From Bradyrhizobium sp. B124 (lineage in GTDB: Bacteria > Pseudomonadota > Alphaproteobacteria > Rhizobiales > Xanthobacteraceae), in the NCBI RefSeq assembly GCF_038967635.1, contig NZ_CP152413.1:3658001-3722000 (forward strand): 64,000 nucleotides of DNA. Direction: 5' to 3'. The translations under genes were made by a program, and so were the position numbers. Below are positions 6,139-63,232 of this stretch, piece by piece. How positions within the stretch are numbered: position 1 is the stretch's first letter; the number at the start of each line of letters is the position of its first letter. The notes under the pieces were generated by a model, which had not been told where the DNA came from, searched no databases, and worked only from the letters and a program-made list of their open reading frames with translations.

Positions 6139-6163
6139 GGAACGCTTGACGATTGCGATGATT
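6139..6163 (+). promoter_or_regulatory. EcfG-like promoter (GGAAC-N16-GATT)
   Basis: The -35 GGAAC is at 6139-6143 and GATT at 6160-6163, 35 bases before the start of the PRC-barrel remnant. The -35 is perfect; the -10 deviates from CGTT. Confidence 0.4.
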
Positions 6164-6197
6164 GCTTTCCGAAACAGTCGTTTGTGGAGGATTTATC

Positions 6198-6406
6198 ATG
6201 GCATTGGAAGCGAACGAGGCCGGCAACCTGATCGGAAGCGATAAGGTCGAAGGCACGGAGCGGACAGCCAGAAGATCGGCAGCATCGAACGGAATCACCG
6301 GGAGCCAGCTTCAGGCGCGCCGAAGTATCGTGAGGAGACAAGCTGGAACTGGAGTGATCCGGTAGTTGGCCGGTCGGTGAACGAATACTACGGCGTCCCA
6401 TTCTGA
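6198..6406 (+). pseudogene. PRC-barrel domain protein, internally deleted and frameshifted
   Basis: ATG 6198 follows a GGAGGAT ribosome site. The frame starts MALEANEAGNLIGSDKVEGT; after a one-base shift it reads GADSQKIGSIER, the first PRC-barrel strands. About 60 residues of the barrel are absent. After another shift the C-terminus returns as SWNWSDPVVGRSVNEYYGVP before the stop at 6404-6406. Intact relatives I recall have ~130 residues and this same end. A complete but distinct PRC-barrel gene is present at 61.2 kb. An EcfG-like promoter lies upstream. Confidence 0.75.
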
Positions 6407-6462
6407 CAGCATCAACTCCCCAGGGCGCGCTCGTTCCCCGGCCCGCTGAACTGTATTTGCGC

Positions 6463-6681
6463 ATGTCCGGTCAACGCGAACTCTACCATAGCTCTAACGG
6501 GGATCGCTGGACGCTCTGCAGCGAGGATGACGGACGCGTATTTGCGCTGCACGAGGCCCATCTACCCTCGGGCGGCGCCTTTAAGAGGATAGAGATTTCG
6601 GACTTTCTTTCTCACGGAAAGGGCGGACCCGAGCAGCAAGCTCTCCTTAAATTAATCGCTGCACTCGTTCATGGGAATTGA
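6463..6681 (+). CDS. Small conserved hypothetical protein
   Basis: The 72-residue protein has the pattern LYHSSNGDRW near the start and QALLKLIAALV near the end, as in a family widespread in Rhizobiales of unknown function. It is likely cytoplasmic. An in-frame TTG at 6457 is an alternative start. It is followed by an EcfG promoter for the next gene, so they are probably separate transcripts. Confidence 0.65.
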   Translation: MSGQRELYHSSNGDRWTLCSEDDGRVFALHEAHLPSGGAFKRIEISDFLSHGKGGPEQQALLKLIAALVHGN

Positions 6682-6742
6682 GCGCCGGCTCGCCGCCCGT
6701 GATGGCGGATACACACTCACCCTTGCGAACCCACCGGTCTCT

Positions 6743-6768
6743 GGAACCTAAGCGATCCGCTCAGCGTT
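6743..6768 (+). promoter_or_regulatory. EcfG promoter, perfect match (GGAAC-N17-CGTT)
   Basis: GGAAC at 6743-6747 and CGTT at 6765-6768, 22 bases before ATG 6791. Confidence 0.6.
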
Positions 6769-6790
6769 CTTAGCGTTTGAAGGCTAGACA

Positions 6791-6976
6791 ATGTCAATCG
6801 AAGAGACAGATGTAGGTGTTAGAGAAACGCTGAGTGAGTTTTCTCAGCGGCTTCCCAGCGAGCGAGCGAGCCCGATATGGATCGATCGTCTCGGTGCAGC
6901 AACCCGTGTAGCTCCGCTTGAGATGCTTGCCGCGGCCTTTCTCATCGGAGCACTTCTGGGGCGTCGTCGACGCTAG
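6791..6976 (+). CDS. Small membrane protein, DUF883-like C-terminus
   Basis: The 61 residues have an acidic N-terminus and a hydrophobic C-terminal segment (APLEMLAAAFLIGALLGRRRR). This resembles the membrane anchor of ElaB/YqjD (DUF883) stress proteins, which tie to the inner membrane through a C-terminal GxxxG-type helix with a basic end. The N-terminal helical part is much shorter than in that family. A perfect EcfG promoter lies just upstream, which supports the call as a real stress gene. Confidence 0.55.
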   Translation: MSIEETDVGVRETLSEFSQRLPSERASPIWIDRLGAATRVAPLEMLAAAFLIGALLGRRRR

Positions 6977-7072
6977 CAAAACGCCGGCTCAGAAGCGCCG
7001 CGCGATGATCAGCATTCACTGTTACCTCTCACCCATAAAAGGTTCGGCGGCCGAAGCCGCCGCCTGTCGATA

Positions 7073-7700
7073 CTACGCCGTTGCCGCCGCGACGCGAAGC
7101 ATCGCCTCGGCAAGGTCGTAGCCGAGAAGCAGTCCCCGACCCTGCTCTCCGTAGCCATGACCGCCTCGCTGTGCATCTTCGAAAAGGGTCATAGCGCGCG
7201 CGAAGATCAGCACGCCGGCCACCGTTCGCGGACGATGCTTCCGAATTTTGGACAACAGCGAGTGGATTTTGGGCGCCCGCTCGCGCGCAGCGTTCTTTGC
7301 GGCGGCGAACCCGACGCCTCGATCGCATTCGCGCAGTCGGCCTCGTACCCCTTCACCGCGAGGATGCGGCTGGTCAGGTCCGCTTCCAGCCGTTGCCGAG
7401 CCCTCTTCCCTCCCCAATCGTTGGGCTCTTTACGGCCGTGTCGAGGAGCGACCGGAGGCGATCGGACCTGAGCACGTTGAACGGGGGCTGCCTAAAGCCG
7501 TCGGCCTGCTCAAAGCAGCCTTGGAAGGCGCGCCGGTCGGCCGCAGATGCGATCACGATCGACGCCGGCGGTTTCGGGCCCATAGTTCGGCAGCGAGCGC
7601 CCTGGTTTGCTCCACGCGCGCTAGAGCAAGCCGGTAGGCAGTCTGCTTCGCGTCCAATTCGTCGCCCGGGGGTCAGCAATTCGCAAATCCGCCGCAAGAT
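7073..7700 (-). pseudogene. Decayed conserved hypothetical gene(s)
   Basis: Pieces in different minus-strand frames read in order: RRICELLTPG, DELDAKQTAYRLALARVEQT, ADLTSRILAVKGYEADCA, and RPRTVAGVLIFARAMTLFED continuing to a stop at 7073. The last piece resembles a rhizobial hypothetical family in which TVAGVL and a GYELAEA-like segment are conserved. At least three frameshifts separate the pieces, so no full product can be made. Two adjacent dead genes rather than one are possible. Confidence 0.45.
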
Positions 7701-7753
7701 ACCTAGGCGCGCTACGGAGAGGCTGGTAAGAGTTTGCCCTTCCGAGGAAAGGC

Positions 7754-7957
7754 ATGGTGATAGTTCATTTTTCGTGCCGCGGCTGCGGCGCTGTTTATTC
7801 TGCGGTTCAAAAGCGGCGCCCCGCTCACGTGATCAGTTCTGGACTTTCTAGCTGCGAACGTTGCGGGACTATCGTGCATCATTGGTCGGGAATCTATGGT
7901 TACGCCGACTGGAAACGCATCGGGCACGGTGGCGATGGAAAAGAGGCGCCTCGGTAG
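7754..7957 (+). CDS. Small zinc-ribbon-like protein
   Basis: The 67-residue protein carries two Cys pairs, CRGCG near residue 8 and CERCG near residue 33, then HHWSGIYGYADWK. The layout matches small rhizobial proteins that probably bind one zinc through the two CxxC knuckles. There is no DNA-binding domain beyond this. Function unknown. Confidence 0.65.
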   Translation: MVIVHFSCRGCGAVYSAVQKRRPAHVISSGLSSCERCGTIVHHWSGIYGYADWKRIGHGGDGKEAPR

Positions 7958-8056
7958 AACGGCCCCAGCTCGGGGATAAGCACTGAGGCCGATCCATGAT
8001 GACGTCACGCACACACTCTTTCGGTGGGCGGCTCATACCTTGAGGCGGCCTCACTT

Positions 8057-8317
8057 CTATCTCGATGCTCGCAATCCCTGCGGCGTTAGCCATTCGCTCA
8101 TACGGGCCGCCTCTTCGTGCTGCTGTGCCCTCCTCAGCAGCGATTCCCGCTCCTGACCCGGCGAAAGCCCTTTTGCCCGGCGGCGCAACTCTTGAGCTTC
8201 TTGTGCAAGGCGCCCTTCAAGGGAATGAATTTGTTTAACCCGGCGTCGCTTCTGCACGGTCACTCGCTCCGCTGAAAAATTCCCGGCGAAAGGAATCAGT
8301 AAGCGCAGCACTGCCAA
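8057..8317 (-). CDS. Small helical hypothetical protein
   Basis: The conserved core is IHSLEGRLAQEAQELRRRAK, then LSPGQERESLLRRAQQHEEA and EWLTPQGLR, a small alpha-helical family I recall from Bradyrhizobium. The first 26 residues are not typical, so internal GTG or GTT starts near residue 20-27 are possible. It lies 19 bases downstream of another small gene on the same strand and may share its transcript. Confidence 0.6.
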   Translation of the reverse strand: MAVLRLLIPFAGNFSAERVTVQKRRRVKQIHSLEGRLAQEAQELRRRAKGLSPGQERESLLRRAQQHEEAARMSEWLTPQGLRASR

Positions 8318-8336
8318 AAGTTCCTTTAATCGGAAC

Positions 8337-8516
8337 CTACGGGCCGGAGCGAACGTCGCTCATGGCCCGCTCGACTTCATCAGCCAGGGTCCGGTAGTGC
8401 GTGGCCAGCTGGGCGAACAGCTCTTTCTTGGTCGCGTTGGTTGCGAGCTTGCTGATTAGCTCGCACTCCTCAGCTTCGATCCGAAGCTTCTCCAAGTGCG
8501 CTCGCATGTCCTGCAT
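8337..8516 (-). CDS. Small helical hypothetical protein
   Basis: The 59 residues read MQDMRAHLEKLRIEAEECEL onward and end LADEVERAMSDVRSGP. This is a recurrent rhizobial family with a conserved Cys in AEECELI and a KKELFAQLA segment. It is probably helical and cytoplasmic, of unknown role, and first gene of a two-gene unit with the following small gene. Confidence 0.65.
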   Translation of the reverse strand: MQDMRAHLEKLRIEAEECELISKLATNATKKELFAQLATHYRTLADEVERAMSDVRSGP

Positions 8517-8696
8517 GGGAAAATCCCCTCCGGACGGGCATCATCCCATGCGGAACCTGTCGCGGATAGTGGCCTTTGGGAGAACGGATGGCGTCGCTTA
8601 ATCGCAATTTGGACACTCCCAAAATCCACTTAGGACACTGGTACAGACAGCTGCCGCTGGGCCGGTACTGGCCGGAATACTCAATAGGAACGCTGC

Positions 8697-8716
8697 GGTT
8701 TGGTTTGGTTTGGTTT
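8697..8716 (+). repeat. (GGTTT)4 tandem repeat
   Basis: Four perfect five-base repeats sit between an upstream GGAAC (8687-8691) and the DUF6894 gene. The third repeat places GGTT 15 bases from GGAAC. Confidence 0.7.
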
Positions 8717-8746
8717 GGGTATCGGAGATCTGAAAATGAGCGCCCG

Positions 8747-8995
8747 ATGCCTCGATACTACTTCGACCTGAAAGACACGAGCGGAACTGCCGTTGATGAG
8801 GAAGGCCTTGACCTACGGGATTTGGAAGCGGCGCAGAGCGAAGCCGCGCTATCCTTAGGAGGCATGGCTCGGGATGCAGTCGTCAGCGCCAATCAGAACG
8901 GGACCGAGCATATGGAAATCGCGGTCCGGGATGAGGATGGACCGGTGATGGTCGTTCGCTTTTTCTTTGAGATCTGCTCGAAAAAGAAGAGCTAG
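8747..8995 (+). CDS. DUF6894 family protein
   Basis: The 82-residue protein opens MPRYYFDLKD, contains VDEEGLDLRDLEAAQSEAA, and ends in a beta hairpin (IAVRDEDGPVMVVRFFFE). This is the DUF6894 pattern, a short family very common in Bradyrhizobium with no assigned activity. The start is fixed by family alignment; the frame extends upstream. A second DUF6894 gene is at 47 kb. Confidence 0.8.
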   Translation: MPRYYFDLKDTSGTAVDEEGLDLRDLEAAQSEAALSLGGMARDAVVSANQNGTEHMEIAVRDEDGPVMVVRFFFEICSKKKS

Positions 8996-9129
8996 CGCGC
9001 CGGCAAGGCAGGCCACGGTCGATGGAAACACCCGGCGCCAGGCGGCCTGTTAAAAGGTGCCTCGATGAGTTCTGACCGGTCGCCCTGGTTTCTAAAAGAA
9101 TGGCTCCAGCGAGGGGCTGGAGCCGCCGG

Positions 9130-9840
9130 GTGTCGAGGTCAGTGGACCCGCACTCGATGCCGACGCCGGCGAAGAAGTCGCGTCCGACGACATCATCAAG
9201 GGCTACAAGGTCGACACCGATCAATATCTTGAAGTGACCAAGGACGAGATCGAGAACATCGCGTTGGAGTCGAAGCGCACCATCGAGATCGACGAGTTCG
9301 TGCCGAGGAAGCGAGATCGACGATCTCTATCTCGTGCGCCCTACTACATCGTTCCCGATGGCAAGGTAGGACACGACGCTTATGCGGTCATCCGCGAAAC
9401 CATCCGCTCGCTCGATAAAATCGCCCTCGCCCGTATGGTCTTGACCAACCGCGGGCACGTCATCACCCTCGAGGCGCGCGACAGGGGTCTGATGGACATG
9501 CTGCTTCGCTACCCCTATGAAGTTCGCAACGCCGCGGAATACTTCGGCGACATCCGTGAAGATCACGAAGGATATGTTGGAACTCGCCAAGCATATCGTC
9601 GAGCAGAAGTCCGGTCACTTTGAGCCCGAAAAGTTTGAAGACCACTACGAGCAGGCTTTGCATGAACTGCTCGACCAGAAGCGGAAGGGCCTTCCGATTG
9701 CGACCGCCCGGAGGCCGGCACCGAGCAATGTGTTCAATTTGATGGACGCGTTGAAGCAAAGCATCGAGGGCGGCGACAAAGCTAAGCCAGCGACGAAACC
9801 GACGAAGGCGAAGAAGGCACCGGCCAAGCGTCTCACCGAG
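9130..9840 (+). pseudogene. ku: Ku DNA end-binding protein, truncated and frameshifted
   Basis: Recognisable Ku segments run in order: IIKGYKVDTDQYLEVTKDEI, ALESKRTIEIDEFVPR, PYYIVPDGKVGHDAYAVIRE, MLLRYPYEVRNAAEYFGDI, and in a second frame VEQKSGHFEPEKFEDHYEQA. Around 9305-9345 the family sequence EIDDLYLVRP appears in another frame, so two opposite indels flank it, and a third lies near 9553. About 50 N-terminal residues are missing. Ku would bind broken DNA ends and recruit LigD for NHEJ. The copy is dead. Confidence 0.85.
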
Positions 9841-10210
9841 ATAAACCGTTCTGTCCATGAACGCCGGCTTCATGCGCTTGGGCCAGGGCGGCTACCTGCA
9901 GGCCTTCACAATCTCAGGCCGACTTTCGTCGCGCCCGGTCGCGGAGCCTCTTTCGCAGATTGGCATCAGGGCCGGCCTGCTTTGGCCGCCGCGGCCTTTC
10001 TCCGGCTTCTAGGTCGGCTTCTTCGGCCTTGCACTTGGCCTCGGCCGCGGCGCCGCCGACGCTCTACCGCAGTCCATCAGATCGACGACGAACGGGTTCG
10101 GCACCGTGTATAAGAAACGCTTCTGGGCAGATTTAATTACTGCGTTGGGGACTTTGCTGGTCCGCAAGAGTTGCACCGTCGTTCAGCTCGCTTCGGAGGC
10201 AATATCAAGT
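9841..10210 (+). other. Stretch between Ku and ligase remnants
   Basis: Nothing is certain here. A frame near 9855-9900 reads LGQGGYLQAF, faintly like a transposase segment, but it is too short to call. Confidence 0.3.
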
Positions 10211-10767
10211 ATGAATCTGATGGAAGCCGAATCCGTCGCTCAATTGCCGCGCGGAGCAGAGTGGCAATATGAGCCGAAGTGGGACGGATTCCGTTGTCTT
10301 TTGATACGCGAGGGCTGCCGAATTCGCATGCAATCCAAAGGTGGTCCGCGACCTTGTTCGCTACTTTCCGGAGATTGCTGCGGCCGCGGCGACCTTATCG
10401 CAGAAAACGCTCACGCTGGATGGCGAATTGATCATCGAGCTTGAGGCCGGGTATTCGTTCGACGCGTTCCAGCGCATCCACCCGGCCGTGAGCCGGGTTT
10501 AAGCGCCTTGCCGAGGAGACGCCCGCGACGTTCATGGTTTTTGACCTGCTGCAATCGGGCACGAGAGACCTTGCGTACTTTCGCTTATGAAGCGTCGTGC
10601 CGCTCTTGAAAACCTTTCGCGACACACTTTCGAGGTAGGCGGCATCTTTCGTCTGTCACCGGCAAGCCGCAACTATGCGGATGCCGAGGCTGCTCAACAC
10701 CGTGAATGAAGATCATGACGGCGTCGTCGCCAAACGCCTTGCCCGCAATCCCCGAGGGGCCTGGTGA
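10211..10767 (+). pseudogene. ligD: ATP-dependent DNA ligase (LigD type), frameshifted and truncated
   Basis: The frame from ATG 10211 reads PRGAEWQYEPKWDGFRCL, with the nucleotide-binding Lys motif EPKWDGF. After a shift comes LVRYFPEIAAAAATLSQKTL and LDGELIIELEAGYSFDAFQR, then FMVFDLL, RRAALE and finally DGVVAKRL, all in ligase order. At least four indels are needed and the C-terminal OB-fold is absent. With the Ku remnant beside it this was an NHEJ module. The 3' end meets an oxidoreductase remnant from the other strand. Confidence 0.8.
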
Positions 10768-11133
10768 CTGGCGCGATAGCAGCGGACTGCCTTCTCGAAA
10801 CCGTAAAGCTGTGTGAGTTGGAAAAACGGACGGCCCAAAGCAGCATTGCGGTGCTGGCGACCGTGCTGCCGAGGCTTGGAATCTCGCGATCGATGATGAT
10901 GACCTGCCGACCCTGCCGGGTCAGGCGCTCAGCCACCAGGGCACCCGTGATACCAGCGCCTATTACCAGGACTTCGCAGCGAAAGTTGTCGGCAATCGGC
11001 TCGCCGGACGGTGGCGGCAGAACCGCCCATGGTGTGCGGGCGCTGCGCAAGTCGTCCTGTCCGATATCTTCGTCTTTGAAGGTGAGGAAAAGCTCCCGAA
11101 AATAGGTGAAGTGATCTCGTCACGCAGGCTCAT
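10768..11133 (-). pseudogene. FAD-dependent oxidoreductase, N-terminal fragment
   Basis: ATG at 11131-11133 overlaps the stop of the upstream gene (ATGA). After one indel the frame reads SARTPWAVLPPPSG, then VLVIGAGITGALVAERL, a Rossmann dinucleotide fold with GxGxxG. A second shift gives QLTQLYGFEKAVRCYRAS. The rest of the protein is lost where the ligase remnant begins. It was the second gene of a translationally coupled pair with the Rieske-type oxidoreductase. Confidence 0.7.
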
Positions 11134-12635
11134 CTTTGAACGGGTCGCAAGGCCGAAACGGCCGGCGCATTGATCGGCTGGCCATTGGGCGCGAAGATCG
11201 AGCCGTGGCATGGACAGTCCCAGCAGGTCTCGAAGCTGTTCCAGTGCAGATGGCAGCCGATATGGGTACAGCTTGCCGAATGCAAATGCAGCTCGCCCGC
11301 TTTGTCCCTGTAGGCAGCGATCTTCTCAAGACCACGGCGCAGGATGGCGCCCTCACCCGGCTTAAGCTCCTCAACCGAGGCGATTTCACCCGGCGCCACG
11401 TACTCGGCGAGGTTTTGCAGGATCGTCATGTTCTCGCGCAGGAAATTCCGCGCCGCTGCGAGAGGTTTGCGATCCGGCGCATAGACAGGCCTCCAGGGGT
11501 GATCCCCGCCGAGAATGAGAGATGAGTTCAGAATCGCGCCCATCACACCATGGGTCAGCCCTTGACCGGAGTCGCCCATTGCGAGGTATATGCGCTCGCT
11601 GCCGGGCTCGCGGCCGATGAAGCCGGCATAATCGATGGTATCGAGTACCTGTCCCGACCAGCGGTGCGTGACCCTGCCAACAGCCGGGATCAATTCACGC
11701 GCCCAGCTCTCCAGCCGGGCAAAGCGCTGGTTGGCGTCATCCGCCTCGCCGCTTTTGTGGTCTTCGCCGCCGACAAGAACGAAATCATGATGGTCCGGAC
11801 CCGCTTGCAGCCGCACATAGTGGTAGGGATCCTCGGTGTCCCAGTAGAGCCCCTCCGGAAGTTCACCCCGCGCGATCGCAAAAGCGACCACGTAAGTGCG
11901 ATAGGGAGCGACCTTGGAATGCAGCTGGAAGCGGTCGGCAATTGAGGCGTTGGTCGCGATCACGGCGTGACCCGCGGTGATCTGCCCGTGTGAGGTTCGC
12001 AGCGCAACGCCGCCGTCCCGTTCGGCAACTTCTTCGACCGGACTGTTGGCGAAGAAGCGAACACCGTTCGTTTCGCAGACTGCGGCAATTCCGGCAAGAT
12101 ATCTGAGGGGATGGATTTTTGCCTGGCGTGGATAGCGAAGCACGTGGCGTTTCTCACAGCCTTTGAGCGGCACGCCGACCAGCCGATGGACCGGCGCGCC
12201 GACTTCCTGCACCGCTTCCAGTTCCTGATCGATGATGTCGGCCGGCATGCCGTTGCCCTGAAACAGGTACCCATCCAGTCGCATAAAGTCGCAGGCAATC
12301 TTCTCGCTCGCCTGAATCTCCTCGATCCGATCGACGGCGGCGGCCTGACTTTCGTAGAATAGCTTGGCGATTTCAGCGCCGCGCAGTTTCTTGAATTCGG
12401 TCATCAGATCGTCGCAGAGCGGCGCAAGGTGCGCTGAAGTCCGCGCGGTCATACCACGTGCGATACCCTTGCGATCGATGACGATGACCGACTGGCCACG
12501 CTTGGAGAGTTCATAGGCGGTCGAAAGCCCGGCCATTCCGGAGCCGACGACGGCTACATCGCAATGCGCATCGCCTTTGAGCTCAGCCGCCTCTGGGAGT
12601 ATCTCCGTGTCCATCCATAGCGAGGTACTGACCAT
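11130..12635 (-). CDS. FAD-dependent oxidoreductase with C-terminal Rieske domain
   Basis: The 501-residue protein has an N-terminal FAD domain (VVGSGMAGLSTAYEL near residue 30), a DAO-type middle, and a C-terminal Rieske [2Fe-2S] module. There CTH and CPCH, separated by 15 residues, give the C-x-H...C-x2-H ligands. Such fusions move electrons from a small substrate through the iron-sulfur cluster; the substrate is unknown. ATG 12635 is chosen because GGAG lies 8 bases upstream and a perfect EcfG promoter ends 24 bases before it. The frame further upstream overlaps the divergent gene. It is coupled to a broken second oxidoreductase. Confidence 0.85.
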   Translation of the reverse strand: MVSTSLWMDTEILPEAAELKGDAHCDVAVVGSGMAGLSTAYELSKRGQSVIVIDRKGIARGMTARTSAHLAPLCDDLMTEFKKLRGAEIAKLFYESQAAAVDRIEEIQASEKIACDFMRLDGYLFQGNGMPADIIDQELEAVQEVGAPVHRLVGVPLKGCEKRHVLRYPRQAKIHPLRYLAGIAAVCETNGVRFFANSPVEEVAERDGGVALRTSHGQITAGHAVIATNASIADRFQLHSKVAPYRTYVVAFAIARGELPEGLYWDTEDPYHYVRLQAGPDHHDFVLVGGEDHKSGEADDANQRFARLESWARELIPAVGRVTHRWSGQVLDTIDYAGFIGREPGSERIYLAMGDSGQGLTHGVMGAILNSSLILGGDHPWRPVYAPDRKPLAAARNFLRENMTILQNLAEYVAPGEIASVEELKPGEGAILRRGLEKIAAYRDKAGELHLHSASCTHIGCHLHWNSFETCWDCPCHGSIFAPNGQPINAPAVSALRPVQR

Positions 12636-12659
12636 CCTGATCTCCGCGCAATATGGCAA

Positions 12660-12684
12660 AACGCCCGCTCGGTGCCGCAGTTCC
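12660..12684 (-). promoter_or_regulatory. EcfG promoter, perfect match (GGAAC-N16-CGTT)
   Basis: On the minus strand GGAAC is at 12684-12680 and CGTT at 12663-12660, driving the Rieske oxidoreductase gene. Confidence 0.65.
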
Positions 12685-12775
12685 TCCTGCGGCGGGAAAC
12701 GGCCTCCGCGCCCCTTCGCAGGGATGGTCAGAACGGCGACCCCGACCGTTGTGGCCACTGCGGCAAAGGCTGCGA

Positions 12776-55277: not shown

Positions 55278-56660
55278 ATGGAGCCCAAATTGCCAAGACT
55301 CTCAAAAAGTCTCTCGACAAAATTCTCGAATCAACTCTGGAACCGCCTCTCCTTGCGCGCACGGCTGTTGCTGCCATTGGCTGCAATGATCGTCGGCGCG
55401 CTGCTGCTCGGCGGCCTTGCCTTGCAGACCTTCTCACCCGAGCAGTTCGCGGATGAGAATGCCCAGGGCGCGCGCTCTGCCCAACTCGTGGCCGATGCGC
55501 TGAACGCCGCGCTCGCGGCCGCCAACAATCCGCAGCAGACACTCGACGCGTTTGCGGGCGGGCTTGGTACGCTAGCCGCCATCGAGTTCGTACCGGCGGG
55601 GTCGAAGCCGCCCCGCACAACCACGGAGACCTATCCCGGCAATGTTCCCGCCTGGTTCACCGCTCTGTTGCAGATTCCCCAGCTTGGCTCGACCCATCCG
55701 ATCAGAATCGGCACGGCGCACGTCGGTGATATCCTCTTCAAACCCGACCTCTCGGCCGAGATCCTTGAAAAATGGGTGGGCTTTTTAGCCATTGTCGCAT
55801 CCGCTGCGGCGCTAATGCTGCTTGCCGGACTCAGCGCCTATTTTACGACGGGCACGGCGCTTCATCCGCTGGCGCAGCTCGGCGCCGGGCTGACCCGGAT
55901 GCGAAACGGCGACTTTGATGCCGCGATCCCATTGGCCGGCCCACCTGAGATCCGCCAGAGCTGTGCAGAAGCCAACGAGCTCGCCGCGACGCTGAAGCGC
56001 CTCAGCCGCGACAATCGAAACCTGCTGCGCAAGCTCGTCGCCGTGCAGGACGACGAGCGCCGCGAGCTGGCCAGGGAACTGCACGACGAGATGGGGCCGC
56101 TGCTGTTCGCGATCCGCGCCAACGCTACGGCACTGTCAGACCCCGAGGCCGAGGGCCCTCCCGAGCCCGGTTCGCCGGCGCATGGCATCCTCAGCGCGGC
56201 TGAGGCCCTGCAACAGGCGAACCGGCGCGTGCTAGAGGGCCTGAGCCCGGTCTACGTTGCGGAACTGGGGCTAGCCGCGAGCATCCAAGCGCTGCTTCGC
56301 AACGCCCAATCCCAGGCTCCCGGACTTTGCGTCGCATCTCGGATCGATCATCGTCTGAATGAGCTCGACGGCCTGATCTCGCAGACGACCTACCGGGTGA
56401 TCCAGGAGGGCTTGACCAATGTGCTTCGGCATGCGCAGGCCACCGCGATGGGTGTCGTGGCGACGGTCAACGGCGATCAAATCCAGATCGAGATAACCGA
56501 CGACGGCGTTGGCCTGCCGCGGGACCTGACGTTCGGCAGAGGCCTGACCGGCATGCATGACCGCGTGCGTGCGCTCGACGGAAAACTGCAGGTGCTCCGC
56601 GAGCACGGCCGGACCGTGGCGCGCTGCCGGCTTCCGCTCGACCACCCCGTTGGGCAGTGA
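55278..56660 (+). CDS. NarX/DegS-type sensor histidine kinase
   Basis: The 460-residue kinase has two membrane spans (LLLPLAAMIVGALLLGGLAL near residue 35; FLAIVASAAALMLLAGLSAY near 170) enclosing a ~120-residue periplasmic sensor, then a HAMP-like segment. The HisKA_3 box is ERRELARELHDEMGPLLFAI, and the ATPase domain has QEGLTNVLRHA, TDDGVGLP and GRGLTGMHDR. It would phosphorylate the divergently encoded LuxR-type regulator. ATG 55278 is chosen; an in-frame TTG at 55257 is possible. The signal sensed is unknown. Confidence 0.9.
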   Translation: MEPKLPRLSKSLSTKFSNQLWNRLSLRARLLLPLAAMIVGALLLGGLALQTFSPEQFADENAQGARSAQLVADALNAALAAANNPQQTLDAFAGGLGTLAAIEFVPAGSKPPRTTTETYPGNVPAWFTALLQIPQLGSTHPIRIGTAHVGDILFKPDLSAEILEKWVGFLAIVASAAALMLLAGLSAYFTTGTALHPLAQLGAGLTRMRNGDFDAAIPLAGPPEIRQSCAEANELAATLKRLSRDNRNLLRKLVAVQDDERRELARELHDEMGPLLFAIRANATALSDPEAEGPPEPGSPAHGILSAAEALQQANRRVLEGLSPVYVAELGLAASIQALLRNAQSQAPGLCVASRIDHRLNELDGLISQTTYRVIQEGLTNVLRHAQATAMGVVATVNGDQIQIEITDDGVGLPRDLTFGRGLTGMHDRVRALDGKLQVLREHGRTVARCRLPLDHPVGQ

Positions 56661-57061
56661 CGAAGACATCACCGAGAGGAGGGGCGCAGCGCATGCGCGC
56701 AATCCTGCCCTGTGTAACGAACATAAACAGGATCCGAACCCGCCTGCCCTCGAAGCTCAAATAGTCCAGCATCACCCCGTCTTGCTGCGGCGCGATCTCT
56801 TCGAGCCCGAACGCGTCACAAGCAAGGTAGCGGTGGTTGGAGGAGGTACTCAACAATCCGGGACTTTCCAAGCCGCCGGGACAAGGCCGAAAGCCCCACG
56901 GGGAGCGGCTCTTTCGATGTCAGTCATGCTGCTCCTTGCAGCCAACGCCATGGCGAAGGACAAGACCGAGAGGACAAGCCGGCTGATGCCGACACGGGCG
57001 AGAGCACCAACCTGCATACCTTGCCGACCAACGCCATCCGTTCAGCCCAAGGTATGCTTTA
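56661..57061. other. Intergenic stretch, no gene recognised
   Basis: No family-like frame is seen. GGAAC-N16-CTTT at 57062-57086 is a weak EcfG-like element just after it. Confidence 0.4.
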
Positions 57062-57117
57062 GGAACAACTCCGGGCTGACCGCTTTTGAAACTGGAGCTT
57101 ATTCGGAGGAACGTTTG

Positions 57118-57375
57118 ATGAGAGCAGCGAAAGTCATTTTGGCGGCAGCCTTTGTCTTTGGATCGATTGCGGCCGCATCCGCGCAGGGCGGAGGTGGTGG
57201 TGCAGGCGGTGGAGGCGGCAATTCCCCCGCAGCGAAGAGCGGCCAAGGCGCTACCAGCAGTCCAGAATCCGTTAATCCCGCTGCGACCCTGAACGACACC
57301 AAGGAGCGGGGCGGATCCGGCAAGATGACCTCAAGCCGATCCCACAAGCACCGCAAGCACCATAGGACGGTGTGA
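57118..57375 (+). CDS. Gly-rich exported protein
   Basis: The 85 residues begin with a signal peptide (MRAAKVILAAAFVFGSIAAA SAQ), then a glycine run, NSPAAKSGQGATSSPESVNP and a basic His/Lys tail. CGGAGGAA precedes the ATG. It is likely periplasmic and unstructured; function unknown. It is the intact paralogue of the broken gene at 51806-52059. A weak EcfG-like element lies 32 bases upstream. Confidence 0.75.
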   Translation: MRAAKVILAAAFVFGSIAAASAQGGGGGAGGGGGNSPAAKSGQGATSSPESVNPAATLNDTKERGGSGKMTSSRSHKHRKHHRTV

Positions 57376-57498
57376 AATGACGCCGAGCCCGCCGCTCGGC
57401 TTCCATTTTCGGAACGCCGCGGTGCTCATGACTTGCTCGGTGTGCTCGGCTTAACGGTTTTGCTTGCCAGTGTAGCTGGACTTGTCGCCGCGCGTCAT
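57376..57498 (-). pseudogene. Dead copy of the KGG-type small protein
   Basis: The minus-strand frame reads MTRGDKSSYTGKQNR and then TAA; the intact copy at 36465 has MPRGDKSSYTEKQKRQAEHI. Beyond the stop AEHTE matches, and after a one-base shift HEHRGVPKMEAERRAR follows. The rest is missing at the border with the convergent Gly-rich protein gene. The copy has a stop, an indel and a truncation. Confidence 0.75.
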
Positions 57499-57558
57499 CG
57501 TGGTCGCACGATCCGGTTGGAATGAGGTTCCGGAAATAGCGGATGTGAATCGGGAACG

Positions 57559-57594
57559 AAAAAAAGCCGCCTTGGTTGGCGGCTTCTTTCTTTT
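57559..57594. terminator. Bidirectional rho-independent terminator
   Basis: AAGCCGCC (57564-57571) pairs with GGCGGCTT (57578-57585) around TTGGTT. CTTTCTTTT follows on the plus strand and a run of A precedes, giving a T-run on the minus strand. It separates the plus-strand Gly-rich gene from the minus-strand DUF1236 remnant. Confidence 0.7.
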
Positions 57595-57631
57595 GCAGGA
57601 AATATATCACCGGAGCAGTCGTGCGCGATCG

Positions 57632-57968
57632 TCACTCGACTTCCTGTACGACGGTCCGGGTCTGGGGATCGACGAGCATCACGCGCTCGCCAGAATAGAT
57701 ATAGCGATACCGAGTGAGCGAAGGTCCCCAATCGGCCGGCACTGCTTCGAGCTCGACTTCGCGCGGCACAACCGACGACGATCCTCTCCCGCGTTTCCAC
57801 CGGACGAATCTTGTGCTCGGCCACGTAATTGTGGATGCGCGTGCGGTACTGCGGTTCGATCTGCACAGTGGCTGCGTGTCCGGCACCGGTCGTGCCGACA
57901 ACCGTCTGAGCGAGGGCACCTGTTGACGCCAATATGGTAGCGATGGAAACCAGGAACAACTTTCTCAT
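57632..57968 (-). pseudogene. DUF1236 exported protein, frameshifted
   Basis: The frame from 57968 gives a signal peptide (MRKLFLVSIATILASTGALA) and YRTRIHNYVAEHKIRPVETR ERIVV. After one shift near 57775 the second frame reads VPREVELEAVPADWGPSLTR and YRYIYSGERVMLVDPQTRTV to the stop at 57632. Together they match DUF1236 (repeat with VPxxVELxxVPxxWGPxxxxYRYxY). One indel separates them. GAGGAGGAC precedes the ATG. Confidence 0.8.
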
Positions 57969-58585
57969 GTTGTCCTCCTCTCCGCTGTATGCGGAGTTTC
58001 AAGAACAATGAGAGCAAATTGGATTGTTCCTCATCAGAATCCAGATCACGACTCACCTCTTGTTCGCGCCGTTGAACCTATGGCGTTGGACGTGACTTTG
58101 CTATCGAGTGGAGCGACCGCCATGAATGCATCGAGCGTTGGGTGGCGCGCCAGCTGTCCAGTTGGCCCGCGTCAAAGTGCGCAATCGCAACCTTGTCCGT
58201 CTCTACGCCGGAGGCCCCGAGGATGACTTGTAGTAATGCGGAATTCGCCGGGGTGCGCCCCTATTGCTCAGAATGCCACGGTACGAAGACGATAACGTCC
58301 GGGCGCTGGCCCTGGTTCACATCAACTGGCGCGGCAAGCTAGACGTGGGTCGAGGCGGGCTGGCCGGAGCGCCGGGACAGACCCATGCGATGAGCCGCCG
58401 GGGTTGGACGCCGCGCGACCAAACCACTGATCGCATTCGGGCGTGGAAAGGGGCGGAGATTTGCAGGCAGACTCGTCCCGAGATGCTGAGCGCAACGCTC
58501 CTCCCAAGCACATGGACAAGATTCCAGCGATAGCCACCCGGAGGGCGCGGCCAATTCTAACTGCCAATGCAGAGCCGGGTTACAA
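57969..58585. other. Intergenic stretch, no gene recognised
   Basis: About 600 bases; short frames on both strands without start signals or family resemblance. Confidence 0.45.
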
Positions 58586-59639
58586 TCATAACTCCAACTT
58601 TTGCTGGGGGCGCTTTTCTGCCTTTATCAGCTTTTGATAGCAACTTTTGTAGTCTTCCGACATCCTCCTCGCCGAGAAGCACTCCTCGAACCGGGCCCGG
58701 ATTTTGCGCCTACCAGCCCTGGCAGATCGCGGATCGCACGGATTGCCTGTTCAGCATTATCCACAATGAACCCCGTCACGCCATGCTCGATCACTTCCGG
58801 GACCGACCCAGCACGGTAGGCGATCACAGGCGTCCCGCAAGCCAGCGCCTCGATCATGACCAAGCCGAAGGGCTCCGGCCAATCGATAGGGAATAGAAGT
58901 GCGGCCGCTTCACTTAGGAATGGCCGCTTTTTTGAGTCGTCCACCTCGCCGACGAGTTGAACTGGCTTGTCGTCGATATGCGGCTCGATGTGCTTCTTGA
59001 AATAGGCGGATTCCCCTCTGGGTAGCTTGGCAGCGATGCGCAGCGGCAGTCCGGCTGCGCGCGCGATGTGGATTGCATCGTCCGGTCCCTTCTCAGCCGT
59101 CAAGCGGCCAAGAAACGCCAGATAGGTGCCCTGTTCGTAACTTGGACGAAACAGGTCCAACGGAAGCCCGTGCTGGATCGTGCCAATCCAGTTTGCATCG
59201 GGAAGCGATCGTCGCTGGCTGTCGGAGATCGAGATGAATGGCGCACTTGGATATGCTTGAATGACGTCGGGAAGTCCCGGAAGGTCGAGCCGGCCATGCA
59301 TCGTGGTGACGAACGGCACGCCGATCCGGCTAAGTAACGGAAGCGGCAGCCAGTCGACATGCGAATGGATTATGTCGAATTCGCCAGACCGTTCCGCGAT
59401 CGCTTCGAGCAGGAGCGCGTAAGCGGCGTTGGCATCGACGCCCTTTCGTCCAAGACGCAGTGCGCGAGGCAACACCGGATGGAGCTTGCCTTTGGTTCGT
59501 GAATCGCCACTTGCGAACAAGGCAACGTCATGTCCAAGCTCGACCAGCTCGTCCACCAACCAGGCGACCACCCGCTCTGTGCCGCCATAGAGCTCGGAGG
59601 AACGCTTTCAGCCAGAGGAGCAAGCTGGGCTATTCGCAT
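58586..59639 (-). pseudogene. GT4 glycosyltransferase with frameshifts at both ends
   Basis: The start [15 protein letters not shown] is followed, one base short, by [20 protein letters not shown]; the family has PPKLYGGTE, so an A is missing near 59596. The frame then stays open for ~300 codons with [35 protein letters not shown], and the GT4 donor motif [20 protein letters not shown]. Near 58710 a second shift gives the usual tail [11 protein letters not shown]. It would transfer a sugar from a nucleotide donor. If either indel is an assembly error the gene is almost whole. Confidence 0.75.
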
Positions 59640-59642
59640 AGC

Positions 59643-59783
59643 CTATTCCCCCGCTCCGAGTATGGATCGCATGGCCAACACGACGATTGAAGAGAGCAAA
59701 TATGAGACGGCGAGGAGCGTCCAAACTGGCCGCGCGCCGCCCGTGACGATGCGCTCGAGCAGCCCTTCTCTGCGCGTTAACAT
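59643..59783 (-). CDS. 46-residue single-span membrane protein
   Basis: It reads MLTRREGLLERIVTGGARPV then WTLLAVSYLLSSIVVLAMRS. One C-terminal span with a basic N-terminus. Its ATG overlaps the stop of the gene before it (ATGTTAA), so translation is coupled. Its stop (TAG) lies 4 bases before the glycosyltransferase ATG. Middle gene of a three-gene operon. Confidence 0.7.
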   Translation of the reverse strand: MLTRREGLLERIVTGGARPVWTLLAVSYLLSSIVVLAMRSILGAGE

Positions 59784-59986
59784 TCGTCGTCGGGAAGTCG
59801 CGTGAGATAGGCCAGTCCAAAGCTTGCAATCTCCTCCGCATCGCCTTTGCGAACCTCCCACCCTGCATACAGATGACGTTCAAGGAGACAGCGGCGGATA
59901 TCCGAGGCATCGACCTCCGAATGGGTAGCGCGGAAAACGGACCAGGCGGTGTCGACAGCTGTCCGCAACGTGCCTGCTTCTGCCAT
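59777..59986 (-). CDS. Small conserved hypothetical protein
   Basis: The 69 residues read MAEAGTLRTAVDTAWSVFRA then DIRRCLLERHLYAGWEVRKG and ASFGLAYLTRLPDDEC. The DxRRCLLERHL segment marks a short rhizobial family of unknown role, with helical pattern and no membrane span. It is the first gene of the operon with the membrane micropeptide and the glycosyltransferase. Confidence 0.7.
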   Translation of the reverse strand: MAEAGTLRTAVDTAWSVFRATHSEVDASDIRRCLLERHLYAGWEVRKGDAEEIASFGLAYLTRLPDDEC

Positions 59987-61144
59987 TCACAAAGCTCCAA
60001 GCGCGTAGGTATCATTCGCTGGTAACTCGGGATCGGGGCGAAAGTTGCTACTTTCTCCCGATCCGGGAAAACAGCTGCGACCACCCTGGCCACGTCTGAG
60101 CCTCTCCGGCGGACCAGGCCCTGGCGCAGCCTGCTACCCGTCTGCGGATCTGCAACACCCCTCGACCAAGCCTATTTTTTGCGTCGTGATTCTCGGCGTG
60201 GCCCCCAATCCAGCAAGAAGCAGCGGAAAGCTTCAGTCAAGGTATCTACCTAGGTCGCCCCCGTCCTGTCGTTCACGCCGTCGCCGTTGTCAACGAATGG
60301 TCAGATGGCCGGTACCGCGACGGTCGTGCCTGACGCATAGCTCGATCATGGATCAGCGAGCATAATGTACGGGGTGGCGGGCTCAGCGGATTGGCCGTCT
60401 AAGGCGGCCTGCACTGAGCTGCAGTAGCTTGCGTTCTGTGCGAACGCCGTCTTTTCGATTTACCGACGGCCACCACGAACTTCGGGTCCCTACGACAGCG
60501 GCGGAGCGCGATCTAGGCGTGTTCGCGCGAGCCCGCACGCTTCCCGACGCTAGGGCTGCCGAAAACGCAAGAAGGGCCATCACGGCCGCGGGAATGAGCG
60601 GTATGGCTGGGTGAGGCTGACAAAAATCCCAGAAATTATCATGTCCCGAGTTGTGCCTGCAGAAAGCCGCAGTCGGGCTCCTCCTTCACGGCGTGGACCC
60701 GGCACCGATCATCAGAAGGGGAAGTGGGAAAACCCCGAACAGCCGCAGGACAAGCACCGCAACCGCAGTTCCCGCAGCGATTGTCTACATCGGGTTTCTA
60801 TGGCTTGCTGCTTGAGAGATGCCAGCCTAGGGTTTTTCGGACGATAAACTCTGAGACTTGATCCCCTGCGGAGAGACCTTGCAGCGCAGGTCTTCTGCGG
60901 TGTCGCTGATTGCGGAGGGCCTCCTTTGCCTTTTGCGACACCCAACGACGCCCCCCCCGACGGCGAGGCAATAGGCCCGGCAAGGCCCCGGAATCGCCAA
61001 CAGCCCCGCCGACGATGCCGAGGGCGAAAACTAGCTCCGCGAAAGGACTTGCGGCTTCAAGACCTCGGCTGCCCGAGAGCGCCTGTCCTCGCGCCCACGC
61101 CGCCGCGTTCTATGCGCGGCGCCGGGGCGTACCGTCTCATCCTT
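59987..61144. other. Long intergenic stretch, no gene recognised
   Basis: About 1.15 kb. Frames on both strands are Arg/Pro/Ser-rich and lack start signals. It may be decayed beyond recognition. Confidence 0.4.
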
Positions 61145-61170
61145 GGAACGTTTTGCCACTTCATCCTGTT
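61145..61170 (+). promoter_or_regulatory. EcfG-like promoter (GGAAC-N17-TGTT)
   Basis: GGAAC at 61145-61149 and TGTT at 61167-61170, 32 bases before ATG 61203. Confidence 0.5.
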
Positions 61171-61202
61171 CCATAAAAGGCAATCACCGAGGGAGACATG
61201 AG

Positions 61203-61598
61203 ATGAAGAAAATCTTCGCTATTGGGCCTCTGCTAGCCGTCGCAATGGTAACCGGCGCATTCGCCGCGACGACCGTCCTAAAGGAGGGGCCAAGGGAAAG
61301 TTGGACTGTGACGAATTACTACAAGCAGGCCGTATACGATCCGAAGGAAAGCAAGATCGGCGATATCGACGACGTCCTCGTCGACAAGTCCGGGAAGATC
61401 ACGGGTCTCGTGATCGGCGTCGGCGGCTTTCTCGGAGCCGGCGAGAAGGATGTCATTGTGCCATTCACGGCAGTCAAGACCACCAAGAAGAATGACAAAT
61501 GGTGGTTGACCCTGGATGAAACAAAGGACGACCTGAAAGGCGCTCCGGGCTTTAAGTACGACCGCACCAGCACCACCTGGGTGCCCGAGACGAAGTAG
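61203..61598 (+). CDS. Exported PRC-barrel domain protein
   Basis: The 131 residues start with a signal peptide (MKKIFAIGPLLAVAMVTGAF AA). The PRC-barrel follows: AVYDPKESKIGDIDDVLVDK, SGKITGLVIGVGGFLGAGEK and DVIVPFTAVK, ending with WWLTLDETKDDLKGAPGFKY. Family members occur in envelope stress and photosynthetic or ribosome-maturation proteins; exported forms in rhizobia have no proven role. GAGGGAGAC precedes the ATG. A different PRC-barrel copy at 6.2 kb is broken. Confidence 0.85.
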   Translation: MKKIFAIGPLLAVAMVTGAFAATTVLKEGPRESWTVTNYYKQAVYDPKESKIGDIDDVLVDKSGKITGLVIGVGGFLGAGEKDVIVPFTAVKTTKKNDKWWLTLDETKDDLKGAPGFKYDRTSTTWVPETK

Positions 61599-61671
61599 CG
61601 CGATATCAGCGAACGCGAGGCGTGGTGTAGCTGGCGGCGGTCACCGCGTTCACCGGTAGGAGCCGGGTCGG

Positions 61672-61855
61672 TCAGCTGGCGATAGCCGGAAGACTGACTG
61701 TTGGATCATCGCTCAACGGCGCGATGGTTTCCAGTGTCATGTAGCGGGCGCGCTGGACCGCCGACTCATCGTTCTGTTCGAGCAGGATCCCGCCGATGAG
61801 GCGGACGATGGCATCCTCGTTGGGGAAGATGCCGACCACCTCGGTCCGCCACTTG
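61672..61855 (-). mobile_element. IS256-family transposase, C-terminal remnant
   Basis: The frame reads EVVGIFPNEDAIVRLIGGIL then LEQNDESAVQRARYMTLETI and PLSDDPTVSLPA, the highly conserved end of IS256/Mutator-type transposases in Bradyrhizobium. Similarity stops near 61855, where another gene remnant begins on the other strand. No catalytic residues remain. Confidence 0.75.
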
Positions 61856-61881
61856 AACCAAGAAAAATGGAAAGGAAAAAA

Positions 61882-62711
61882 ATGTCCGAAGTCCCACTGT
61901 CTGCAGCTGATCTGCGGACGCATTTGGATGAGCAAATTGGGTTCTTGGAACCGACCCTCAGCCAAATCGTTCGACGAAGGCTATGAGGACGAAGCGAAAC
62001 GCCTCGCGGTTACGTTGCGCGTCCTGCTTCACGAAACGAGGAACTCGCACTCGGCACTCGGTCAGCTCGGTTCACTCGACCGCTCAACTACCGACACATC
62101 AATGGCCTTTGATCCGTCTAACCAGCTGTCGCACGGCGGCCTTGTTTTCGCCGCTGTCGGCCGCCCCGGTTGCGCAGCTTGATGATGTGCCATGAGCAAA
62201 CAGGTGCCGTTCGACGAATGGTGGGGCGCACCGGTCTTGGTTGATGCCACCCGCAACATCTTAACCGCAAAGACCTCGTGCTGACCGCTGCCAATCAAGA
62301 TGGTGGTGCATATGTAGACCCAGCACTCGATGAGGCTTATCTCAGCTTATCGAAGGGGACTTTTATGCGCGCCTTCAGGGTGGAGAATGGCAACAGTGCC
62401 CACTCGAAGCGCCGGAGCGCGCAGCTATTCGGCAAGTTGCGCGCGAGGTCCTCAAAACACTGAAGCCGGGTTACGGTAAGAACCCGTCTCACCAAGCAGA
62501 TGTTATTGCGGGTGGGATGTCCTTGGTCGTGGGCGAGCCGAGCACGTTACAGCTGGAGATGCATAAGGCAGGGAGAGAACTGGCGACTAAGAGACCGGCT
62601 GCGAGTACGAAATCGGTCGAAACCAGCCTTGCACTTGTGGCAGCGGAAGAAAGTTCAAGCACCATCACGGGCCCCTCACCTGAAGCTCCGGACGAAAGAC
62701 GACCAAGCTGA
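61882..62711 (+). pseudogene. Conserved hypothetical protein, multiple frameshifts
   Basis: Pieces in order: MSEVPLSAADLRTHLDEQIG, KSFDEGYEDEAKRLAVTLRV LLHETRNSHSALGQLG, VPFDEWWGAPVLVD, LVLTAANQDGGAYVDPALDE, AIRQVAREVLKTLKPGYG. They match, in order, an intact ~230-residue protein I recall from rhizobia (EAKRLA, NQDGGAHVDPALD, EVLxxLKPGY). Four or more indels break it. A perfect GGAAC-N16-CGTT lies inside at 61947-61971 and is probably chance. Confidence 0.65.
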
Positions 62712-62809
62712 AGCGTACCGACCTCACATGGCGAAACGCGGGATCAGCACCGGCCGCCGCCAACTGCGCAGATGATGTACTGCACCGCCCTGGTGCCGGA
62801 AGCCATTGC

Positions 62810-62843
62810 AAAAGGCCTCCACCGGATCTACCGGCAGAGGCCT
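62810..62843 (-). terminator. Rho-independent terminator
   Basis: On the minus strand AGGCCTC pairs with GAGGCCT, with an inner CCGGTAGATCCGG hairpin, followed by TTTTGC. It ends the small exported protein gene at 62903-63130. Confidence 0.55.
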
Positions 62844-62902
62844 GGCGGGTGGATGGCGTGAGGCTGAAACTGTCAGGTGTCACCCCAAGGACCCGAGTTC
62901 GC

Positions 62903-63130
62903 TTAGTTCGACGTGCAGACCTTGACGGTCTTCATGCCAGTTTCAGCTTCAGCCCTGGTCTTGTAAACAGTGTCACCGCTCACAACGGCCGTTTCCGTGG
63001 TGGTGGGCTTCGTTTCAGTGATCGTGCACTTCTTGGTCTTGGCGTCTTGCACAACATAAAAGCCTTCAGCAAAGGCAGGCGCAGCGACTGCCGTCATGAG
63101 CGCGGCGGCAACAAGGGTCTTCAACTTCAT
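62903..63130 (-). CDS. Small exported protein
   Basis: The 75 residues begin with a signal peptide (MKLKTLVAAALMTAVAAPAF AEG), then FYVVQDAKTKKCTITETKPT and VVSGDTVYKTRAEAETGMKT with two Cys that could pair. I recall this family as abundant in Bradyrhizobium; it is likely periplasmic. GGAGGAGG precedes the ATG. An EcfG-like promoter (GGAAC-N16-TGTT) lies 45 bases upstream, back to back with that of the next gene. Confidence 0.8.
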   Translation of the reverse strand: MKLKTLVAAALMTAVAAPAFAEGFYVVQDAKTKKCTITETKPTTTETAVVSGDTVYKTRAEAETGMKTVKVCTSN

Positions 63131-63174
63131 TCCGTCCTCCTCCAGTAGCGCAGGCTTCAGCCTGTCTGCGAAAC

Positions 63175-63199
63175 AACAAAGAAAATTGCCACTTGTTCC
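63175..63199 (-). promoter_or_regulatory. EcfG-like promoter (GGAAC-N16-TGTT)
   Basis: On the minus strand GGAAC is at 63199-63195 and TGTT at 63178-63175, driving the exported protein gene. Confidence 0.55.
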
Positions 63200-63207
63200 T
63201 GACGCTC

Positions 63208-63232
63208 GGAACAGCGCGAGGACCTCCGCGTT
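63208..63232 (+). promoter_or_regulatory. EcfG promoter, perfect match (GGAAC-N16-CGTT)
   Basis: GGAAC at 63208-63212 and CGTT at 63229-63232, 31 bases before ATG 63264. Confidence 0.7.

Follow-up and report, generated by a model that had tools for sequence, protein, structure and literature searches.

The window considered here is the whole 64,000-nucleotide stretch analysed (genome positions 3658001-3722000) of the 9,169,800-base, single-contig genome of Bradyrhizobium sp. B124. It lies wholly within, and approximately in the middle of, a 241.7-kb element (3,558,729-3,800,482) that makes up 2.6% of the genome and is inserted at a tRNA-Pro gene; all borders of this element fall outside the window (1..64000, no strand assigned). 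The EcfG/PhyR/NepR general stress response and its mechanism are established in the Alphaproteobacteria, and the window is rich in the EcfG-type promoter word, which we sought on both strands as a perfect motif (GGAAC-N16/17-CGTT) and as a relaxed motif (GGAAC-N-NGTT). In the extracts available to us, the word is given as GGAAC-N16-CGTT for Rhizobium etli EcfG (PMC3892343), and EcfG-type promoters have a spacer of 16 or 17 bases (PMC4814048). The perfect sites of the window, with several relaxed ones, are as follows (window coordinates; N16 and N17 give the spacer; aa, amino acids; ORF, open reading frame).

6743..6768, plus strand: perfect site, N17, 22 bases before the ATG of a 61-aa ORF with no clear ribosome site
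12660..12684, minus strand: perfect site, N16, 24 bases before the DAO-Rieske gene
12776..12800, plus strand: perfect site, N16, 28 bases before the DUF892 gene
14416..14441, plus strand: perfect site, N17, no convincing gene downstream
18807..18832, plus strand: perfect site, N17
19119..19143, plus strand: perfect site, N16
20313..20337, plus strand: relaxed site (AGTT), 32 bases before the gene for a thiamine diphosphate (ThDP)-dependent enzyme
27702..27726, minus strand: relaxed site (GGTT), 30 bases before a 165-aa gene that precedes BrkB/YihY
31147..31171, minus strand: perfect site, N16
49186..49210, plus strand: perfect site, N16, 22 bases before the DUF3606 gene
53180..53206, both strands: overlapping perfect pair (53180-53204 plus, 53182-53206 minus)
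53926..53950, plus strand: perfect site, N16, before a 145-aa ORF (53998)
61145..61172, both strands: overlapping pair, a TGTT site (plus) 32 bases before the PRC-barrel gene and a perfect site (minus, 61147-61172)
61947..61971, plus strand: perfect site, N16
63175..63199, minus strand: relaxed site (TGTT), 44 bases before a 75-aa ORF
63208..63232, plus strand: perfect site, N16

Fourteen perfect sites were found in the window, whereas 100 dinucleotide shuffles averaged 1.10 and never exceeded 5; they occupy 13 places rather than 14, because those at 53180 (plus) and 53182 (minus) are identical DNA read on both strands. An earlier note on this DNA had named 11 perfect sites and put the chance expectation in 64 kb at about one. 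All 11 are present where it placed them, while the sites at 18807 (plus), 31147 (minus) and 61147 (minus) had escaped it. Its statement that eight sites lie 22 to 48 bases before a start is about right if taken loosely: counting ORFs of at least 40 aa, this applies to seven of the 11 (6743, 12660, 12776, 49186, 53180, 53926 and 61947), three of which precede Pfam-matched genes (DAO-Rieske, DUF892 and DUF3606). Of the near matches that it reported, four were recovered: before katE (GATT, 36 bases), the ThDP enzyme (AGTT, 32), the PRC-barrel gene (TGTT, 32) and, at YihY, the 165-aa gene upstream of YihY/BrkB (GGTT, 30). No convincing gene lies close downstream of the perfect sites at 14416, 18807, 19119, 31147, 53182, 61147 and 63208. 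The comparison with the remaining genome for which the note had called revealed enrichment over the average: the window, 0.7% of the genome, holds 14 of its 159 perfect sites, where 1.02 would be expected from the rest, and the element as a whole holds 22 of the 159 against 3.7 expected (Poisson 9e-11).

The site excess is specific, being clear at spacer 16 and weaker at spacer 17. Perfect N16 sites occupy 97 positions in the genome, 15 of them within 103 kb, and in 2000 simulations with uniformly placed N16 positions no 105 kb ever held more than 10. The densest other 105 kb of the genome holds 6 and lies near the regulator locus described below; in one relative (G004), at most 5 of 78 N16 sites fall in any 105 kb. 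The densest part of our genome (3,617,000-3,722,500; 105.5 kb) is wider than the window and has 15 perfect sites at N16 and 6 at N17, against 0 to 2 at the others among spacers 12 to 22; with the relaxed motif the counts are 32 and 8, against 0 to 7 at twelve other spacers. For the complete element the corresponding figures are 15 and 7 perfect sites (0 to 5 at twelve other spacers) and 41 and 12 relaxed sites (2 to 11 at each of twelve other spacers). In the element, 50 of the 53 relaxed sites avoid well-scored genes; 25 of the 53 both do so and fall no more than 150 bases ahead of a predicted start. Among 71 control sites with ten wrong spacers, 46 lie outside well-scored genes and 8 also within 150 bases before a start.

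A compositional artefact, in which low-GC DNA with long noncoding stretches yields more chance matches to an A/T-containing motif, sits poorly with an excess that falls at spacer 16 and less at 17, with shuffles of the same sequence that give 1.1 sites, and with the low-GC DNA beside three related integrases, which has few sites and 0 to 3 genes with a site. We consider it extremely improbable, even though the island does have the lower GC (guanine plus cytosine) content and a coding density, from well-scored genes, of 0.55 versus 0.82 to 0.86 outside it, and even though the frequency of wrong-spacing sites also rises somewhat as the GC of a locus falls (Spearman -0.27).

Overlapping sites on both strands, of the GGAAC...GTTCC type, occur in the window at 12776-12802, 53180-53206 and 61145-61172 and could fire both ways. 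The 53 relaxed sites include four overlapping pairs that enter the count twice; such pairs were rejected as a special feature, this number being, by our own estimate, the chance frequency.

The tRNA-Pro(CGG) gene (3,800,436-3,800,512, minus strand) lies near the right-hand step in GC content, and the 47 bp of its 3' end (3800436-3800482) are repeated identically at 3558729-3558775, at the left GC step. A 426-aa integrase ORF (3799221-3800501; PF00589, Phage_integrase) runs into the tRNA gene. GC content per 20 kb is 0.56 to 0.62 from approximately 3.558 to 3.800 Mb and 0.64 to 0.67 on both sides. The gene to the right of tRNA-Pro is present in 60 of 61 genus genomes. At 30 tRNA-Pro loci, our own included, the comparison yielded an uninterrupted site, with the left-flank gene directly beside tRNA-Pro, in 2 of the 29 relatives' loci (G004 and G052, respectively 99% and 97% identical at the gene right of tRNA-Pro). 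The left-flank gene was not found at the tRNA-Pro locus in the other 27, of which 10 show a long match to the integrase at this position. Because of the tRNA repeat, the integrase, the low GC content and the uninterrupted site in two relatives, the element is shown to be a genomic island, integrated site-specifically into the 3' end of tRNA-Pro(CGG). The earlier note had spoken of a stress-regulon island on the strength of its promoters; the site enrichment and the tRNA-Pro-integrated element together support that term, and an island in the strict sense is new beyond what was then observed.

It could be argued that the window represents an old chromosomal stress cluster of the lineage that was never acquired, with the tRNA element around it being coincidental. 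The recurrence of DUF892 near a short-chain dehydrogenase/reductase (SDR) gene in many high-GC loci of relatives, and the two further DUF892 genes on the chromosome outside the island, would fit such a cluster. However, the GC steps coincide with both copies of the 47-bp repeat, the flanking genes are joined at tRNA-Pro in G004 and G052, G004 has its ceiling of 5 N16 sites per 105 kb as opposed to 15 here, and eight relatives' neighbourhoods that we checked lack such density, all of which makes an old cluster very unlikely.

Two other identities for the element or its parts were considered and rejected. A symbiosis island is rejected because the strong PF00142 (NifH-family) match occurs only outside the element, at 7428895 (7.43 Mb), in a search that did not extend to nod genes. 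A tRNA-Arg(TCT) gene is carried inside the island (window 3833-3908), and a nested island at this gene is rejected because its ends have no repeat within 502 kb. Of the conjugation genes expected in a self-transmissible element, the coupling protein PF02534 is absent from the island, its one genome match being at 7330392; other coupling-protein families and relaxases were outside this search.

Relatives of the integrase (E up to 1e-80) were found in 61 of 195 genus genomes, our own included, and 200 kb was taken beside each of four related integrases (81-83% identical), in whole 20-kb stretches rather than to exact borders. Islands of approximately 198 kb (G106), 113 kb (G175) and 80 kb (G041) are each bounded by two copies of the tRNA-Pro 3' end; in G060 the far border was not found. 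Relaxed sites number 11 in 200 kb of G106, 3 in the first 120 kb of G175, 13 in 200 kb of G060 and, in G041, 12 in the last 80 kb, with 9 of these in one 20 kb; our own island has its 53 in 241.7 kb. Genes with a relaxed site within 200 bases make up 21 of 172 in our island, 2 of 116 in its left flank and 0 of 118 in its right flank (2 of 234 for both flanks). The corresponding figures are 2 of 154 for G106, 0 of 82 for G175 and 3 of 157 for G060 (5 of 393 for these three together) and 4 of 43 for G041, and wrong-spacer pairs give 0 to 2 genes in every island or flank set. Since the DNA beside three of these integrases is not dense, site density is a trait of the cargo and not of the element family.

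Even within our island the sites are concentrated in 105 kb, and the right-hand 78 kb has few. This distribution would also fit a composite history, in which an older EcfG-rich module (approximately 3.617-3.722 Mb, possibly a separate island), mobile in its own right, joined or was taken up by a tRNA-Pro element bringing the efflux and defence-like genes. Such a history agrees with the reading that we prefer (below) on promoter function and differs from it in history only. The EcfG-dense DUF892 loci of other strains share only scattered matches with the island, which, like the tRNA-Arg gene and the IS66 and DDE_3 transposases inside it, speaks for a composite; however, a search of 502 kb gave no further copy of the tRNA-Arg ends, and there is no GC step at the module borders. 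We regard a composite as possible, if doubtful.

Genes were called with a home-made caller that has no external validation (272 called island genes, 172 of them well scored), and domains were assigned by Pfam on selected proteins. The main genes of the window are as follows.

11130..12635, minus strand: FAD oxidoreductase (DAO) with a Rieske domain, from Pfam
12829..13344, plus strand: DUF892 protein (PF05974)
13367..13936, plus strand: inorganic pyrophosphatase, directly after DUF892, with no site of its own
14915..17467, minus strand: UvrA-type protein, no site within 250 bases
20370..22157, plus strand: ThDP-dependent enzyme (NF006129)
22300..23052, plus strand: DUF72 protein, directly after the ThDP gene, with no site of its own
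26092..27165, minus strand: BrkB/YihY membrane protein, after the 165-aa gene
31526..33649, plus strand: large catalase (KatE/HPII type), with the near match GGAAC-N16-GATT 36 bases upstream
49233..49421, plus strand: DUF3606 small protein
61203..61598, plus strand: PRC-barrel protein

Stress-type cargo is shown in the left two thirds of the island. The island carries the large catalase, Ku, the UvrA-like protein, two full DUF892 proteins, two BrkB, two PRC-barrel and two DUF72 proteins, together with DAO-Rieske, the ThDP enzyme, the pyrophosphatase, CYTH-CHAD, HAD, SDRs, PhaC, two-component proteins and many small proteins; PF05974 has five matches in the genome, three of them in the island (two full and one fragment) and two outside. 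Standard sites precede both full DUF892 genes, DAO-Rieske, the ThDP enzyme, both PRC genes and DUF3606. The GATT box of katE falls outside the relaxed motif (NGTT) and hence is not counted. No standard site was found within 250 bases of either DUF72 gene or the pyrophosphatase gene, and several site-less genes come after a site-bearing one: the pyrophosphatase (after DUF892), DUF72 (after the ThDP enzyme and, on the left, after DUF892) and the BrkB gene of the window (after the 165-aa gene). The right-hand part of the element has efflux proteins and a defence-like block, and the element also has IS66 and DDE_3 transposases. The defence-like block (3767643-3794647; window +109,643 to +136,647) lies near the integrase end and has DUF4011/MTES_1575 restriction endonuclease (REase) helicase, DUF2130, PDDEXK_4, trypsin-like, CHAT and UvrD domains.

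The best matches to DUF892 are up to 96% identical and come from Bradyrhizobium. We kept 80 of 315 DUF892 loci with named records, mostly from Bradyrhizobium, with some from Rhodopseudomonas, Afipia and other metagenome-assembled genomes. These have 148 perfect sites at N16 and 34 at N17, against 4 to 22 at each of 12 other spacers, and within 300 bases upstream of DUF892 there is a relaxed site in 77 of the 80 loci and a perfect one in 63. Low-GC DUF892 neighbourhoods are EcfG-dense. This was measured in those 67 of the 80 loci that reach 15 kb or more, with the DUF892 promoter region removed and strain relatedness uncorrected. The 8 loci with GC above 0.655 have 3.0 relaxed sites per 100 kb and the 10 with GC below 0.605 have 29.5, the wrong-spacer measure for the same two classes being 4.3 and 5.2; the Spearman correlation of density with GC is -0.64 for relaxed and -0.35 for perfect sites, compared with the value given above for wrong spacers. 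Promoters also tend to stay with their genes. In a search of 166 loci with 145 of the 272 called island genes, 111 of 132 homologues of site-bearing island genes had a site (28 of 38 without the two DUF892 queries), including 17 of 20 for DAO-Rieske, 7 of 8 for PRC and 2 of 3 for the ThDP enzyme; for two site-bearing genes, none of their 5 homologues had one. Homologues of site-less island genes had a site in 41 of 202 cases, 36 of the 41 coming from three genes.

An EcfG-dense 20 kb was also seen in an order-level relative from another family (G019:C2:278185-298003, loci L096-L098). Among its genes are relatives of the island's DUF892, HWE kinase and AI-2E transporter, and 10 of 59 genes in 60 kb have a site.

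The presumed reader of these sites lies elsewhere in the genome. We found one NepR, at 6498153-6498368 (match at 6,498,216), adjoined by an extracytoplasmic function (ECF) sigma factor at 6497605-6498153 (Sigma70_r2, r4_2 and PhyR_sigma2; NF009192 above cut-off) and followed by a PhyR-type ORF at 6498497-6499435 (PhyR_sigma2, PhyR_sigma-like and a partial receiver match). The interval from 6,499,546 to 6,516,170 contains eight EcfG-type sites, relaxed or perfect. An island-encoded NepR-EcfG-PhyR system is rejected, as all three map at 6.5 Mb (6.4976-6.4994 Mb), 2.7 Mb from the island; therefore the island sites most likely depend on a distant switch. Alternatively, a different ECF sigma factor whose specificity resembles that of EcfG may read the sites, or they may be silent relics in a decaying island. 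The low coding density and the gene remnants (SDR, P450, MscS and MFS pieces, and the DUF892 fragment) would be in keeping with decay, and, according to the available part of PMC3892343, many Alphaproteobacteria have at least two EcfG-like sigma factors. Even so, a single NepR was found in this genome, in a count that did not extend to EcfG paralogues, and sites stay with genes in other neighbourhoods, also outside DUF892 (the 28 of 38 above); since decay would not preserve the pairing of site and gene, the relic reading is weakened, and we consider either version unlikely.

The island bears a REC-HWE histidine kinase (3756546-3757736) followed by an AI-2E transporter (pair, 3756546-3760564). 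HWE kinases belong to the HRXXN class; a link between the island kinase and PhyR is a guess. HRXXN kinases control PhyR, as stated in the extract of PMC4814048 at hand.

Our preferred reading, to which we assign a probability of about 0.82, is that the element is a horizontally acquired, partly EcfG-wired stress island that uses the switch of its host, with EcfG-dependent transcription predicted from the DNA sequence. A good part of the cargo is, as sequence, preceded by EcfG-class promoters, and these are presumably functional. If the island follows the scheme established for the family, stress would activate PhyR, and active PhyR would withdraw NepR from EcfG. The host EcfG-RNA polymerase would then transcribe the EcfG-type units of the island along with the core regulon, and the island genes would be off in growth and on in stress. 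Since Alphaproteobacteria have this promoter word in common, genes of this kind would bring their own plug. One speculative addition is that the REC-HWE kinase could feed signals into PhyR. A benefit under stress, and mobility at the present day, would be plausible extensions of the same reading.

A number of observations weigh against this EcfG-wired island. Genome-wide, the perfect motif shows no excess (159 sites versus 200 for a reversed control), because of which many of the perfect matches elsewhere are probably due to chance; the relaxed N17 excess in the element is small (12, with up to 11 at other spacers); and for 28 of the 53 relaxed sites no called gene begins within the next 150 bases. 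To these may be added the sparse right-hand 78 kb and the lack of density in the DNA beside the G106, G175 and G060 integrases. No standard site lies within 250 bases of Ku, the UvrA-like gene, CHAD, katE, PhaC, the integrase, both BrkB genes or the HWE kinase. In the conservation test, homologues were found for only 8 of 16 site-bearing queries, with related strains not down-weighted, and DUF892 neighbourhoods made up 80 of the 166 loci, a bias towards the result. G175 has, outside its island and at GC 0.64, two 20-kb stretches with 5 and 6 relaxed sites, so chromosomal site clusters exist too. Finally, the CHAD and KatE neighbourhoods of eight relatives have 1 to 4 perfect sites per 100 kb and are not EcfG-dense. 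With strict E-value limits, CHAD and KatE homologues occur in 28 and 4, respectively, of 61 genus genomes, our own included; both were rejected as island markers, their homologues being scattered and their neighbourhoods in the eight relatives ordinary.

The promoter word is the same as in the known EcfG/PhyR/NepR regulons (Bradyrhizobium diazoefficiens, R. etli EcfG and Sinorhizobium meliloti RpoE2), and the regulator genes are present here. In the accessible part of PMC8092242, B. diazoefficiens EcfG redirects transcription to more than 100 genes. What differs from these regulons is that 22 of 159 perfect sites lie in one acquired element making up 2.6% of the genome, and such an island is not described in the portions of those sources available to us. 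A tRNA-Pro integrative and conjugative element (ICE) and a tRNA-Pro symICE of Bradyrhizobium are mentioned in the extract of PMC9239051. So far as such partial sources allow, the border integrase, the repeats at both ends and the variable cargo are common to our element and to the tRNA-integrated ICEs and islands of this genus, but here the cargo is of stress type with EcfG-type promoters, and the NifH-family and PF02534 matches lie outside. Likewise, the plasmid-borne EcfG2 of R. etli, as presented in the available part of PMC3892343, is a case in which accessory DNA contributes to general stress regulation. In R. etli it is an accessory sigma factor that sits on a plasmid, whereas here the targets sit on an integrated element in which no NepR was found, the search there not having covered sigma factors systematically. 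Among the matches listed for the open-access literature, covering titles and the openings of abstracts, no EcfG-promoter-rich genomic island is named, which, with subscription papers outside that scope, is weak evidence of absence.

Our results suggest that stress gene sets could be gained ready-wired to an existing stress switch of the host, which bears on the old question of how newly gained genes come under host control. One insertion could alter the stress tolerance of a soil or plant bacterium in a few steps, and regulon maps from a few model strains may miss the accessory, island-borne part. A broader and more tentative idea, which we hold at rather less than even odds, is that much of the general stress regulon in Bradyrhizobium and its relatives is a travelling regulon, made of repeatedly gained promoter-plus-gene units that plug into the host EcfG, and that EcfG control, by leaving foreign cargo silent in growing cells, makes it tolerable to the host. 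If this were true, the rise in density with falling GC around DUF892 (3.0 to 29.5) would be its signature, and EcfG control would be a sigma-factor counterpart to xenogeneic silencing, as represented by MucR in the extract of PMC8857273 available to us.

Two further features of the window deserve mention. Likely remnants lie at 19470-20210, 24921-25889, 27641-28588, 36999-37649 and 45305-45775, comprising MFS, MscS and P450 pieces and an SDR without its N-terminal part. At 41356-43596 there is a gene for a 746-aa protein with SAM, guanylate/adenylate cyclase and AAA_16 domains.

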